A stretch of 64,000 bases of DNA from Neochlamydia sp. S13 (lineage in GTDB: Bacteria > Chlamydiota > Chlamydiia > Chlamydiales > Parachlamydiaceae): NCBI RefSeq assembly GCF_000648235.2, contig NZ_AP017977.1, positions 2,356,001-2,420,000 of the forward strand. The letters are read 5' to 3'. Made by a program: the position numbers and the translations under genes. A model generated the notes under the pieces. That model saw nothing but the letters and a program-made list of their open reading frames with translations, did not search any database and had not been told where the DNA came from. Below, piece after piece: positions 24,531 through 31,319 of the stretch (its first letter is position 1; each line of letters opens with the position of its first letter).

Positions 24531-24547
24531 AGACCTCTTTCGAAACT
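24531..24547 (+). repeat. Terminal inverted repeat of the IS (left)
   Basis: AGACCTCTTTCGAAACT, identical to the reverse complement of 25428-25444. Its last base is the first base of the transposase stop codon on the other strand. With one more base each side (T/A) the match extends to 18 bp. Confidence 0.9.
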
Positions 24548-25373
24548 CACGTATTTAATTCCCAGTTATAGATTGCTGCAATCAAGTTGAAGCGAAGTGC
24601 AAATCTTTTACGTCTATTTCTGTAGCGATCGGCTATAATTTTAAAGCGCTTAAGGAGGCCAATCACGTTTTCATTGGCAACTCTTTCTCTGGATAAACTT
24701 TGGTTTGTTCTTTTATCCTCTTGAGTTAAAGGCTTCTTCTTACTTTTTTTCTTGGGCATCTGGGTTTGGGCATGCAGCTTTGTTAATCCTTGATATCCTG
24801 AATCGGTTAACACTCTTATTTGTGGATTGATTTTAACCTGAGATTCTTTGAATAGCCTAAAATCATGCTTTTTGCCGTTGCCAAATGAGGTACAAATTAC
24901 TTTTTTACTCTTCTTATCGACTACAACTTGGGTCTTTAGGGTATGTTTTTTCTTTTTCCCTGAATAATAGCGCTTTTGTTTTTTTTAGGGCGCTCAATAG
25001 GCGTTTCTGTAGCATCAACCAAAATAACCTCATATTCCGTATCGCTTTTCAAAAGCTCTTTACGTCCCGGTAAAGCAAAATCTGGATGCTTGATTAACGT
25101 ATCTTCAATCCATTTCACCGCTTTATAAGCTGAGCTTTCACTGATTCCATAGCTTTGACTAATATGGAAATAGGTCCTATATTCTCGCATATATTCCAAG
25201 GTCATTAGCAGCATGTCTTCTAAACGTAGTTTATATTTACGCCCGCCTTTAATCTTCTTGGCCGCATCGGCTTGCTGTAAAATTTGCACCATCTTATCAA
25301 AGGTACCACGCTTTACTCCTGTCAATCTGCGAAATCGTTCATCATCTAATTTCTCTATCTTATCAAATTTCAT
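24547..25373 (-). CDS. IS5-type transposase made by -1 frameshifting (orfA-orfB)
   Basis: DDE transposase in two frames. OrfA (25373 down to 24936, 145 aa) holds the helix-turn-helix part (SYGISESSAYKAVKWIE) and the first catalytic Asp in VILVDATETPIERP. OrfB (ending at 24547) holds TLKTQVVVDKKSKKVICTSF, the second Asp in VLTDSGYQGL and the Glu in NENVIGLLKRFKI. The join at the A-AAA-AAC heptamer (24978-24984) makes a protein of about 275 aa, reading IERPKKN then QKRYYSGKKKKHTLK, as in full-length relatives. The nucleotide count fits exactly one -1 shift. Without the shift a 145-aa product forms, which may act as a regulator. A single-base mutation is the alternative. Confidence 0.8.
24978..24984 (-). 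other. A-AAA-AAC slippery heptamer
   Basis: On the minus strand the sequence CCT-AAA-AAA-AAC contains the canonical -1 heptamer in the correct phase relative to orfA. Slipping back one base leaves orfA and enters orfB. Such heptamers are well known from IS elements with split transposase genes. Confidence 0.75.
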
Positions 25374-27233: not shown

Positions 27234-27260
27234 AGCTTGCTAATTTATAATTAGCAAGCT
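27234..27260 (-). terminator. Strong intrinsic terminator between hydrolase and mcsB
   Basis: AGCTTGCTAATT (27234-27245) and AATTAGCAAGCT (27249-27260) form a perfect 12-bp stem with a 3-base loop. On the minus strand a run of five T follows, 16 bp after the mcsB stop codon. On the plus strand a TTTATTTTT stretch follows a few bases later, so it may work for both convergent genes. Confidence 0.8.
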
Positions 27261-27275
27261 AAACAAGCTTTATTT

Positions 27276-28349
27276 TTAAACTCTTAGATGCGCTTGAAGG
27301 AGAGCTTTATGGATAAACTCTGCTCTTTTATGGACAATTTCTTCTTGAGGGAGATGTGTTTTCTCATGAAATTCTGCTAGCAAATGGGATCTTCGACAAT
27401 TAAAGAATAGTTGATTGATGGATTGGCGGGAGATGCCTTCTACCCAGCCCATTTCAATTCCTAATTTAAGGAGACTGATAGCGTTGAGGGCTTCAATAGC
27501 ATCAATTTGATAAGAATGGGTCAAAATACCAAAGGCACGACTGATTTTATCCTTAATATAAGGATCGCTACTGGCTCGAATTTGATTTCTAGCAGTGTTT
27601 TCTTCGACAACCATTTTAGTGGCAAAGGCATTTAAATTAGAAATGATCGATTCCTCGGTAACGCCTAGGGTATAGTTATTTTGCACGACTAGCAAATCAC
27701 CAATAATTTCTTTGGGAGAGCCTCGAAGGCCAAAGCAAGCAATGCTTTCCTCTTTATTTTTTTCTACTATTTCCTCCATTTTTCCCGTATGAACAAGAGC
27801 GGGAAGTTGAAGATAGATAGAAACAAGTAAAGCTGTGCCGCAGCTACCTATATCTGCAGTAAGAAAGCCATATTTAGCATTATAGGCAAAAGAAATGTTC
27901 TGGCCGATAGTGGTTTCAATTTTCAGAAGTTTATTCCAGGCTTTTTCTAGTTCGCCTTTACATTCGATAAGCTGCAAGTGGAGGTGATTGCGGATATTAA
28001 AAGAAGCTAAAAATTGCCCCGAAGCGTCAATGATAAAAGCTTCTCCTAAATGAGCCTGGATAAAATTATCATTAGACCAAAAATGTTCTCCTAGAAATTC
28101 TTTCTCAAAAGGTTCCATTTCTTCCGCCCGAATAAGAGTGGCTGTCTCGAGTAGATCTAAAGATAGAATTTCTTTGCTTAAAACTGAAACCACCTGCTTA
28201 CGTCGCTCTGTACTAAGTTTGCCGGGGAAATTGAATTTCTCAAGATTTCGATGCAGATGAAGAATGGAAGCTAGCCAAATGTCATTATCATTGTTTTGCC
28301 AAAGCTTTTTCTGGTTAATAATAACATTAGATTTATTATTGTTGGCCAT
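27276..28349 (-). CDS. mcsB: McsB-like protein arginine kinase homologue with degenerate active site
   Basis: A 357-aa member of the ATP:guanido phosphotransferase family. The start at 28349 is preferred because GGAG lies 7 bases upstream; an ATG at 28364 would add five residues. The gene overlaps mcsA by 14 bp. McsB normally phosphorylates arginines on proteins to mark them for ClpCP. Compared with B. subtilis McsB as I recall it, SSRIRLAR is ASILHLHR here, NEEDHIRIQ is NIRNHLHLQ, and the catalytic Cys of TSCPTNVGTG is Asp166 (TADIGSCGTA), with a Cys at 170 instead. LRG and QNNYTLGVTEE are kept. The fold is thus retained but ATP-binding arginines and the catalytic thiol are not. It may be a pseudokinase or a phospho-arginine reader. 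Confidence 0.85.
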   Translation of the reverse strand: MANNNKSNVIINQKKLWQNNDNDIWLASILHLHRNLEKFNFPGKLSTERRKQVVSVLSKEILSLDLLETATLIRAEEMEPFEKEFLGEHFWSNDNFIQAHLGEAFIIDASGQFLASFNIRNHLHLQLIECKGELEKAWNKLLKIETTIGQNISFAYNAKYGFLTADIGSCGTALLVSIYLQLPALVHTGKMEEIVEKNKEESIACFGLRGSPKEIIGDLLVVQNNYTLGVTEESIISNLNAFATKMVVEENTARNQIRASSDPYIKDKISRAFGILTHSYQIDAIEALNAISLLKLGIEMGWVEGISRQSINQLFFNCRRSHLLAEFHEKTHLPQEEIVHKRAEFIHKALLQAHLRV

Positions 28350-28896
28350 TACTTTTCTCCACATTTTCCTCTGTCAAAGCTCTAATTTGATCACGCAGCC
28401 ATGCAGCCTGCTCATAATCTTCTCTCTTTATTGTCTCATTGAGGGCTTCGTTAAGAGCTAGTAGACGTAAAGAAGGGCTGATTTCTCTAACCTCACCGGG
28501 GCTGCGTCCTATATGAAGAGGAAAAATTTTTTTATTAGCTTTTACGCGAGGAGGAACTTTATCGAGAATGAGGAGTTCTTGTAAGATAATGTCATCAAAA
28601 ACTTCGTAGCAATTGCTACATCCTAAAGAGGCTCCTACGCGTAATGCTTCTAAAGAGGTATTGCATTCCCCACAAGCCAGGCTTGTTTCCCCGACCATAT
28701 GGCCCATTTCTTTTTCACTTGTTTGGCCATGGAGCTTACGTCGAAAGATAGGGCAGTCTGAGCACATGCTGGTTTGTGAGACAGTATTTCCGATGAGCTC
28801 CGTATACCAAATGGCCACAGGTTTTTTGCATTCTGTGCATTCAATGGGGCGTTCAGGAACTTGCTCTTCAAAAAATTCAAAGGCCTTTTTAACCAT
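28336..28896 (-). CDS. mcsA: McsA-like zinc-finger protein with UVR domain
   Basis: A 186-aa partner protein of McsB. I chose the ATG at 28896 because everything upstream in the frame lacks family features. It has four Cys pairs in CxxC form (ECTECKK, MCSDC, ACGEC, GCSNC; residues about 20-100), the zinc-binding part of McsA, and a C-terminal UVR motif (LNEALNETIKREDYEQAAWL) that in McsA and UvrB/UvrC mediates protein contacts. In Firmicutes McsA activates McsB within the ClpC/CtsR stress system; no ctsR or clpC is next to it here. The mcsA-mcsB overlap and shared terminator indicate one operon. Confidence 0.88.
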   Translation of the reverse strand: MVKKAFEFFEEQVPERPIECTECKKPVAIWYTELIGNTVSQTSMCSDCPIFRRKLHGQTSEKEMGHMVGETSLACGECNTSLEALRVGASLGCSNCYEVFDDIILQELLILDKVPPRVKANKKIFPLHIGRSPGEVREISPSLRLLALNEALNETIKREDYEQAAWLRDQIRALTEENVEKSNGQQ

Positions 28897-29466
28897 AATC
28901 GATCTTTTGATAGATGTTATATATTTACACCTACTATAGAAAATGTGAGCAAAAAAGTATAAATTTATTTTCGTAGGTAGAGTGTTTTTTTGCTTATTTG
29001 GTTTTGGCACCCATTAGAGGGCGTTTTTATCTATAGCCGACAGGATTCTAGTAGAGGCTTAAGCTTACCATTAGCTTGCAAAGAGCTTAAGGTTTTATCT
29101 CTTCATTTGTAAAAGTTAATTTTTAGTGAGTTTTTAAATGCTAAGAGCATAAACCTATTCTAATATCCTTTACAGTTAAGTTTGATCCATTTATAGGAGG
29201 GAGGGGCGCTTAATAACAAAAGGTAGGCAGATTAGGACTTTAATTAGATGCAAGTTAAATATAAACCATGAAAGATGGAAAAGCAGATGCTTTGTAAGCT
29301 TGAGAGGCCTATTTAAAGGATAAAGTATTTCTAAAGGCAAAAAATGAGGGATCTGATTTACGGGTAATTGGCTTGATAAATGCTTAACTTAAATTAGCAA
29401 GATTAAAAAGTTAAAATTACCTTAAAGCTTGAGATGAAGTGTAACATAGACATTGCTTAAAAGCTT
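28897..29466. other. Gene-free stretch upstream of mcsA
   Basis: About 570 bases between mcsA and the tRNA genes. The first part should contain the mcsA promoter. A frame upstream of the chosen mcsA start is open for 38 codons but has no family similarity. No RNA gene or repeat is recognised elsewhere. Confidence 0.45.
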
Positions 29467-29538
29467 GAGACTTGATGGACTCGAACCATCGACCCTCTCA
29501 TTAAAAGTGAGATGCTCTACCGACTGAGCTAAAGTCTC
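29467..29538 (-). tRNA. tRNA-Lys (anticodon TTT)
   Basis: A 72-nt cloverleaf on the minus strand. The acceptor stem pairs GAGACTT with AAGTCTC, the D-arm has TAGCTCAGTCGGTAGAGC, the anticodon loop CTTTTAA gives TTT, and the T-arm contains GGTTCGAGTCC. CCA is not encoded. It lies 8 bp from the tRNA-Glu gene, so both are probably one transcript. Confidence 0.95.
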
Positions 29539-29546
29539 GTGCAATT

Positions 29547-29620
29547 GACCCCAAGGGGATTCGAACCCCTGTTATCGGAATGAAAATCCGGTGTCCTAGG
29601 CCAGGCTAGACGATGGGGCC
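29547..29620 (-). tRNA. tRNA-Glu (anticodon TTC)
   Basis: A 74-nt cloverleaf on the minus strand. The acceptor stem pairs GGCCCCA with TGGGGTC with one G-T pair. The anticodon loop TTTTCAT gives TTC, and the T-arm has GGGGTTCGAATCCCC. The first anticodon-stem pair appears to be C-A. CCA is not encoded. It is the first of two tRNAs downstream of frr. Confidence 0.95.
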
Positions 29621-29721: not shown

Positions 29722-30273
29722 CTAAATGGTGATAATTTCTTTTTCTTTTTTTTCTGCTAGCTCGTCAGCTTCTTTGCAAAACTTATCTGTCAACTCTTGG
29801 ACATTTTTCTCATTCTTTTTCAGCCCATCTTCAGTAAGCTCACCAGCTGTCTTCTGTTTTTTGGCAGCTTCATTAAATTCTCGGCGTATATTACGAATAC
29901 TAATTTTTGCTTCTTCTTTCTTTTTATGGCATTGCTTGACCATCTCTTTGCGCATATTTTCATCCATAGGAGGAATCTTAATGCGGATAGAATTAGCATC
30001 CACGATAGGCATAAAGCCTAGATTAGCTTTTTCAATGGATTTGCCAATTGCATTTGTTGTAGAAGGATCAAAAGGAGTAATTAAAAGCGTACGTGCTTCA
30101 GGGGCTGTCACATTAGCAACTTCTTTGATACGCATGCTAGAGCCATAAATTTCTACAAAAATGCTATCTAACATACCCGCATTGGCACGATTGGTGCGTA
30201 TAGATTTTAAATCATTTTTCAAATGTTCAATCGCTACTAACATTTTAGATTTTGCTTGTTCAAGAATATTCAT
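29722..30273 (-). CDS. frr: Ribosome recycling factor
   Basis: Splits post-termination ribosomes together with EF-G. The 183-aa length and sequence are typical: [19 protein letters not shown] at the N-terminus, [20 protein letters not shown] in domain [22 protein letters not shown], and the C-terminal [14 protein letters not shown]-like helix. It lies 50 bp downstream of pyrH in the common bacterial order pyrH-frr, and upstream of two tRNA genes. Confidence 0.97.
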
Positions 30274-30323: not shown

Positions 30324-31046
30324 TTAACTAATTAATGTTCCATTTTCCGTTTTCGATAATATTTGTTTTAAAGATTCTTTTCCAAGAGCTTCCATGCTAA
30401 ACACAAAAATAGGAAGCTGATTATTCATGCAAAGAGCGATGGAAGTTGTATCCATAACTTCTAGCTTTTCTGCAAGATATTGAGAGTAAGACAAAGTCAT
30501 ATATTTTTTTGCTTGAGGAAATTTTAAAGGGTCTTGAGTGTAGACACCCTTGACTTTGGTAGCCTTAAGCAAAACATCAGCTTGTATTTCGCAAGCACGT
30601 AGGGCAGCAGCGCTGTCCGTAGTGAAATAAGGATTACCGGTGCCACCTACGAAAAGGACGATATGGCCAGCAGCAAGGTAGTCGTTAGTGCGGTTCCAGT
30701 TATAGCTTTCGGCCACCTTAGGGCATTCAAGGGCGCTTATTAGCTTAGTTGTACAGCCAATAGAGGTTAAGGCTTGCTGTAGGGCTATACCATTCATGAG
30801 GGTAGCTAACATGCCCATTTGATCTGCAGCAGAGCGAGGGATTTTTGAGTCTTTTAATTGAAGACCTCGAAAAAGATTTCCTCCTCCAATGACCAAAGCT
30901 AATTCAAAACCTTCTTGCTTTATATTTTTTAGCGCGCTAGCTAACTGCTGCGTAGTAGGAAAATGGATGCCAAAAGGCTGCTCACCTAATAGGGTTTCTC
31001 CAGAAAGTTTTAACAAGATTCGCTTGGCGTTAGATAGATTTGTCAT
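30324..31046 (-). CDS. pyrH: Uridylate kinase (UMP kinase)
   Basis: Phosphorylates UMP to UDP for pyrimidine nucleotide synthesis; a hexameric amino-acid-kinase-fold enzyme. I chose the ATG at 31046 (240 aa), which puts RILLKLSGETLLG at the N-terminus as in the family; an ATG at 31094 would add an unusual hydrophobic stretch. The GGGNLFRG motif, the DQMGMLATLMNG segment and VGGTGNPYFTTDSAAALRA are all present, as is the late EVMDTTSIALC. Next in the operon is frr. The usual upstream neighbours tsf and rpsB are not seen; a secreted-protein gene lies upstream. Confidence 0.95.
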   Translation of the reverse strand: MTNLSNAKRILLKLSGETLLGEQPFGIHFPTTQQLASALKNIKQEGFELALVIGGGNLFRGLQLKDSKIPRSAADQMGMLATLMNGIALQQALTSIGCTTKLISALECPKVAESYNWNRTNDYLAAGHIVLFVGGTGNPYFTTDSAAALRACEIQADVLLKATKVKGVYTQDPLKFPQAKKYMTLSYSQYLAEKLEVMDTTSIALCMNNQLPIFVFSMEALGKESLKQILSKTENGTLIS

Positions 31047-31319
31047 CACTCTTCTCATCTTACAAAAAAGGTATAGATTAAACAAAAAATACATTCTAGA
31101 AAACCTTAATTGCTACGTGCCTTTAAATAGGATTTAAGGTCAGCGCCATTAAAGCTGGCTTGCAACTTCCTGAGCAATGGATTGAAAATTTATTTCAAGG
31201 GATTTTAGGCAACTTAAGGCGCGACTTTCAAGCTGGGTTTAAAAGTAGGTGAGGAATGAAAAGGATAAAAAACTTAAAATATATTTAAGAAACAATTGAG
31301 GATTTTCTTATATAAGAAA

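Follow-up and report, generated by a model that had tools for sequence, protein, structure and literature searches.

Apparent loss of the arginine-kinase active site from McsB across the Chlamydiota, and a candidate kinase-independent role for McsA-McsB at ClpC

The window, as the whole 64,000-nucleotide stretch analysed here is called, comes from Neochlamydia sp. S13 (a 2.8-Mb Chlamydiota genome of a family common to many Parachlamydiaceae MAGs). The genes and features at the mcsB locus, all on the minus strand, are as follows.

27234-27260 (-): intrinsic terminator 3' of mcsB, a 12-bp stem and a T run
27276-28349 (-): mcsB, putative pseudokinase gene, 357 aa, P domain at about 17-250 and D domain at about 251-347 (family searches, fold, residue alignment)
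28336-28896 (-): mcsA, 186 aa, four CxxC motifs and a C-terminal UVR motif, overlapping mcsB by 14 bp
29466-29538 (-): tRNA-Lys(ttt), in the ancestral block
29546-29620 (-): tRNA-Glu(ttc), in the ancestral block
29722-30273 (-): frr, ribosome recycling factor, in the ancestral block
30324-31094 (-): pyrH, UMP kinase, in the ancestral block

The likely start of mcsB is the ATG at 28349, with GGAG seven bases 5' of it. Its ORF matches Pfam ATP-gua_Ptrans (E 5e-30), the sequence of PDB 6fh1 (E 2.5e-38) and NCBIfam NF002191 at 385 bits, above the cut-off of 381, so that standard annotation would give it the name 'protein arginine kinase'. On the Pfam, NCBIfam and PDB matches, homology of 27276-28349 (-) to the McsB family is beyond doubt, and the similarity is full-length, with an McsB fold that includes the D domain. 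The AlphaFold2 model (pLDDT 92.9, pTM 0.90) superposes on solved McsB structures with a TM of 0.86 for 6fh1 and about 0.82 for 6tv6. An earlier reading made from the sequence only had claimed a retained fold and coupling to mcsA; both hold, the latter through the overlap and the terminator hairpin that follows mcsB (27260-27234 (-), -14.4 kcal/mol, z -3.1). Elsewhere in the window, 24547-24813 (-) and 24936-25373 (-) look like split halves of an IS5-type transposase and lie beside a CocE/NonD hydrolase gene.

The positions that correspond to known functional sites of McsB are as follows.

28248-28271 (-): residues 27-34, ASILHLHR, degenerate first ATP-Arg motif by alignment (B. subtilis SSRIRLAR; R29>I, R31>H, R34 kept)
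27984-27998 (-): residues 118-122, NIRNH, degenerate NEEDH motif by alignment (E120>I, E121>R, D122>N); the next Arg, R125, is H124
27864-27887 (-): residues 155-162, AYNAKYGF, counterpart of the loop through which S. aureus McsB touches the zinc finger of McsA; conserved across the Chlamydiota (by entropy; loop role from PMC12467219)
27837-27854 (-): residues 166-171, DIGSCG, by alignment with D166 in place of catalytic Cys167; C170 is a lineage-typical Cys
27708-27734 (-): residues 206-214, FGLRGSPKE, degenerate lid by alignment (R207>F206, E212>S211)
27324-27338 (-): residues 338-342, IVHKR, former pArg receptor motif RDxxR by alignment (R337>I, D338>V, R341 kept)

Nine ATP-binding and catalytic residues (B. 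subtilis R29, R31, E120, E121, R125, C167, R176, R207 and E212, the last being the position of E314 in arginine kinase) are present in all five Firmicutes reference McsB that were aligned (B. subtilis, G. stearothermophilus, Paenibacillus, Acetoanaerobium and Monoglobus), and the window protein keeps none of them. The five Arg that bind the ATP phosphates (R29, R31, R125, R176, R207) are I29, H31, H124, L175 and F206, while catalytic Cys167 and the carboxylates E120, E121 and E212 are D166, I119, R120 and S211. In the pArg receptor site R337-D338-x-x-R341, which reads I338, V339 and R342, the last Arg alone is kept. The sequence-only reading had described an McsB homologue without its arginine-kinase site and with its McsA partner in place, and this description stands: loss of both ATP-binding Arg from SSRIRLAR (A27-S-I29-L-H31-L-H-R34), NIRNH for NEEDH (N118-I-R-N-H122), Asp166 for the catalytic Cys of TSCPTN and a Cys four residues further on, at 170, can all be read in the ORF. 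The alignment adds losses that it had not listed (R125>H, R176>L, R207>F, E212>S, R337>I and D338>V). In B. subtilis McsB, each of the changes R29K, R31K, R34K, R125K, R176K, R207K and R337K singly abolishes activity (PMC7235348), and C167S is described as kinase-inactive; six of those seven essential Arg are gone from the window protein (I29, H31, H124, L175, F206 and I338), R34 alone being kept. Judged from these known mutants, chlamydial McsB is very probably devoid of arginine-kinase activity.

The genome search found McsB in 170 of 234 Chlamydiota genomes, and 108 further sequences from representative loci, the Chlamydiaceae-type family included, were aligned with that of the window. Of the nine residues, these 109 proteins retain none in 75 cases, one in 29 and two in five, never more; Cys167 occurs in none of them, and its position is Asp in 68 and Asn in 25 of the 108. 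What is retained at the catalytic columns approximates background composition (Arg 17 observed vs 19.3 expected, Glu 22 vs 26.6, Cys 0 vs 1.1), and these columns vary more than random ones (P about 0.011). The same residue loss is seen in the Chlamydiaceae-type McsB (loci L032-L038 and L111, in genomes of 1.0-1.4 Mb, an assignment that leans on this size and on the tRNA-flanked mcsAB given for C. trachomatis in PMC10128030), which are 31-38% identical to the window protein. The alignment with Firmicutes and Chlamydiaceae-type McsB that had been proposed as a check thus gave nine of nine residues in the references and at most two in the Chlamydiota, so that the loss itself is confirmed, but not its earlier framing as the trait of one homologue. 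That loss of the active site belongs to the whole phylum is strongly supported by these alignments. A genus-specific loss is rejected on the same grounds. A second, canonical McsB elsewhere in the phylum is also rejected, as none of the 234 genomes carries one (model NF053707, best score 199 bits against a cut-off of 500).

Two observations concern the sequences compared. Three MAGs deposited as 'Chlamydia trachomatis' (L170, L171 and L178) encode McsB 40-41% identical to the window protein, above the Chlamydiaceae-type range, and are probably mislabelled environmental Chlamydiota. The sole non-Firmicutes outgroup McsB in the comparison is a phosphagen/arginine-kinase-like gene annotated as hypothetical, with nine of nine catalytic residues, on a plasmid of Candidatus Bandiella woodruffii, a ciliate-dwelling member of the Rickettsiales (NZ_CP110821.1; L203:2641-3738 (+)).

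Recent work on C. trachomatis takes McsB to be an arginine kinase and has led to a model of pArg-triggered, ClpCP-driven differentiation (PMC10128030, PMC11708050). Phylum-wide loss of the McsB active site runs contrary to current assumptions for Chlamydia, where the literature and NCBI naming both say arginine kinase. We found no paper in the open-access literature that reports catalytic loss of chlamydial McsB, although a subscription paper may have it, and the literature searched contained no measurements of activity or interaction for a chlamydial McsB. An enzyme that is still an active arginine kinase, with catalytic groups supplied from elsewhere or by McsA, is in line with the database name and the 2016-2024 literature; it is nevertheless highly unlikely, with the five ATP Arg, the Cys and the three carboxylates at chance frequency throughout the phylum. 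Also against it, McsA R96, on which stimulation depends in B. subtilis, is changed in most Chlamydiota, and no YwlE-type pArg eraser was found in the LMW-PTP P-loops that were read: the sole LMW-PTP of the window's genome has an Ile P-loop, CLGNICRS, and Ile is found in 28 of 28 loci with a readable P-loop. The P-loop of YwlE reportedly carries Thr.

The genome search found no CtsR in the window's own genome, and mcsAB is not adjacent to clpC; the B. subtilis control genome gave no match for CtsR, Clp_N or ATP-gua_Ptrans though B. subtilis has these genes, so that the negatives of this control are unreliable for the mcsAB operon. Chlamydial ClpCP2P1 degraded pArg-casein and not unmodified casein (PMC10128030), a result that fits a pArg reader and counts against a kinase-free reading. 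B. subtilis McsA and McsB are listed in that reaction mix (PMC10128030), so that an adaptor effect may have contributed to it.

Two further roles suggested by the sequence-only reading are weakened. One is a phospho-Arg binder: across Chlamydiota McsB, R337 is mostly I or L and D338 mostly P or A, with R341 kept. The other is an active site shifted to Cys170, which is common (81 of 108, with Ser in 20), but the five phosphate-gripping Arg and the catalytic carboxylates are gone or random. Repurposing of the enzyme for a new active site or chemistry, built for example on N118, D121, H122, D/N166 and C170, likewise seems improbable. N118 and H122 are near-invariant, D121 is mostly D, N or E, and 166 is mostly D or N, beside the frequent C170; yet canonical McsB conserves N118, H122 and, mostly, D121 just as well, so that these may be structural, C170 is replaced by Ser in a minority, and there is no new conserved basic cluster to hold phosphates.

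The gene nevertheless bears no sign of decay. Between the window and the nearest genome of the same genus, the only pair compared, dN/dS is 0.043 for mcsB (dS 0.35) and 0.045 for mcsA, which rejects a pseudogene reading of mcsB. A functionless, decaying relic would account for the lost active site and for the complete absence of mcsAB from some lineages, but it is the least credible of the explanations weighed here given this ratio, invariant zinc Cys in McsA, fold residues that are near-invariant across Chlamydiota McsB and reading frames that are open throughout. New lineage-specific, near-invariant residues have also appeared, mostly in the D domain (W25, H89-F90, H278-S-Y-Q, W302 and R319-R320-x-H322-L), and those of the D domain (H278-S-Y-Q, W302 and R319-R320-x-H322-L) are not found in Firmicutes McsB.

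The order pyrH-frr-tRNAGlu-tRNALys-mcsA-mcsB is seen in the window, in the Chlamydiaceae-type loci whose flanks gave a match, and in L126, L136 and L161; pyrH-frr lies 5' of mcsA in several more loci, while many other lineages no longer have the block intact. This common block points to vertical inheritance of mcsAB from the phylum ancestor, and so to loss of the active site near the base of the Chlamydiota. Horizontal gain of mcsAB has been suggested from the flanking tRNAs (PMC10128030); a recent gain is not supported, as these tRNAs belong to the ancestral block.

McsA and McsB occur in 171 and 170 of the 234 genomes, respectively, and are nearly always present or absent together, with mcsA directly 5' of mcsB in practically every locus with enough sequence. 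The eight zinc Cys and the UVR core of McsA are invariant in 104 of 104 Chlamydiota sequences, and the window itself has an adjacent partner with four CxxC motifs and UVR. In S. aureus McsB, the loop equivalent to residues 155-164 contacts the McsA zinc finger (PMC12467219). This loop is conserved in the Chlamydiota alignment (mean entropy 0.98 vs 2.06 for the P domain), although the Cys that it positions in active enzymes is gone. The mcsA frame has just 139 codons in L122 (CP058704.1, a single-contig MAG) and L004, beside an intact mcsB, and this is a frameshift or sequencing error. In G107-G109 (family f23) the McsA match is weak (E about 1e-5 to 1e-6) and McsB is absent, perhaps a further step of reduction.

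The N-terminal domain (NTD) of ClpC in the window's genome has Glu at both pArg pockets (equivalents of E32 and E106, in YLGTEH and YVGTEH), and NTD identity is roughly 88% or more among the matches listed. Family f27 (G173-G204) is without mcsA and mcsB and mostly keeps ClpC, so that ClpC does not require McsA-McsB. Since the pockets also serve an allosteric function in their own right (PMC12583610) and the domain is kept without mcsAB, their conservation is not diagnostic of a pArg pathway, and it was rejected as proof of pArg signalling.

The non-catalytic adaptor, already named in the sequence-only reading, is the best that remains of its proposals, as a role that we infer. The chlamydial protein would be a pseudokinase throughout the phylum and, together with McsA, would serve ClpC as an adaptor or regulator independently of kinase activity; for the full adaptor mechanism we judge the balance to be slightly favourable. 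McsB would have lost ATP binding and phosphotransfer while its phosphagen-kinase fold, dimerisation domain and McsA-binding loop remained; the zinc fingers of McsA would grip McsB in a stable complex that may dock on the ClpC NTD, where McsB or McsA might present or protect ClpC(P) substrates without catalysis. Chlamydial McsA-McsB thus probably guides proteins to the protease ClpC with no phosphorylation of them. A kinase-independent role is suggested because McsA is retained, because the ClpC NTD binds McsA/McsB in Firmicutes (PMC12583610), because B. subtilis McsB C167S keeps partial, kinase-independent adaptor activity, and because mcsA and mcsB transcripts rise about fourfold on ClpC overexpression in C. 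trachomatis. The adaptor activity in B. subtilis is a small difference in the half-life of a substrate whose degradation runs via ClpX, not ClpC, which counts against the adaptor reading here, as do the distance of mcsAB from clpC and the presence of ClpC without mcsAB in family f27.

The new D-domain residues, absent from Firmicutes McsB, and the persistence of ClpC without mcsAB in family f27 would also suit a pseudokinase that does not deliver to ClpC and is instead a scaffold, a thiol or heat sensor, or an inhibitor for McsA or another partner, working through the lineage-specific D-domain surface. This is a real but clearly lesser possibility, given that McsA keeps its UVR motif, that McsA/McsB is a known ligand of the ClpC NTD in Firmicutes and that the mcsAB transcripts respond to ClpC. 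Returning to the kinase-independent ClpC adaptor, chances seem even that in the phylum ancestor an arginine kinase became a non-catalytic McsA partner, with pArg-free targeting to ClpCP and possibly a new ligand or chemistry for the fold.

If the enzyme is dead phylum-wide, the ClpCP differentiation model of C. trachomatis needs another signal, the name 'protein arginine kinase' is wrong for Chlamydiota genes, and inhibitors designed against the chlamydial McsB ATP site would be misdirected. Chlamydiota McsA-McsB would then be a natural system for a kinase-independent role at ClpC.

Among known systems, Firmicutes McsB (B. subtilis, G. stearothermophilus, S. aureus) shares the fold, the two-domain layout, the order and coupling of mcsA-mcsB and the structural residues R34, N35, F41, P42, N119, H123, G162, T165, G172, N225, E251, R272 and R341 (B. 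subtilis numbering). It differs in that the window protein has none of the nine catalytic and ATP residues and has lost the pArg receptor R337/D338 and pArg194, in that the window's genome is without CtsR and has mcsAB away from clpC, and in the lineage-specific D-domain motifs. CT675 (McsB/KarG), which the literature describes as an arginine kinase, and CT676 (McsA) were compared through the Chlamydiaceae-type loci, which share the degenerate motifs (for example ITTFSLSR, NFRDH and TNPRE). Phosphagen kinases (arginine kinase, creatine kinase) have the same P-domain fold (Foldseek TM about 0.57); unlike them, the window protein is without the catalytic residues, and an McsB-type D domain replaces the N-terminal helical domain. 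B. subtilis McsB C167S offers a parallel in that it is non-catalytic but still plays some part in Clp-dependent degradation, although it is a laboratory point mutant and not a natural lineage.
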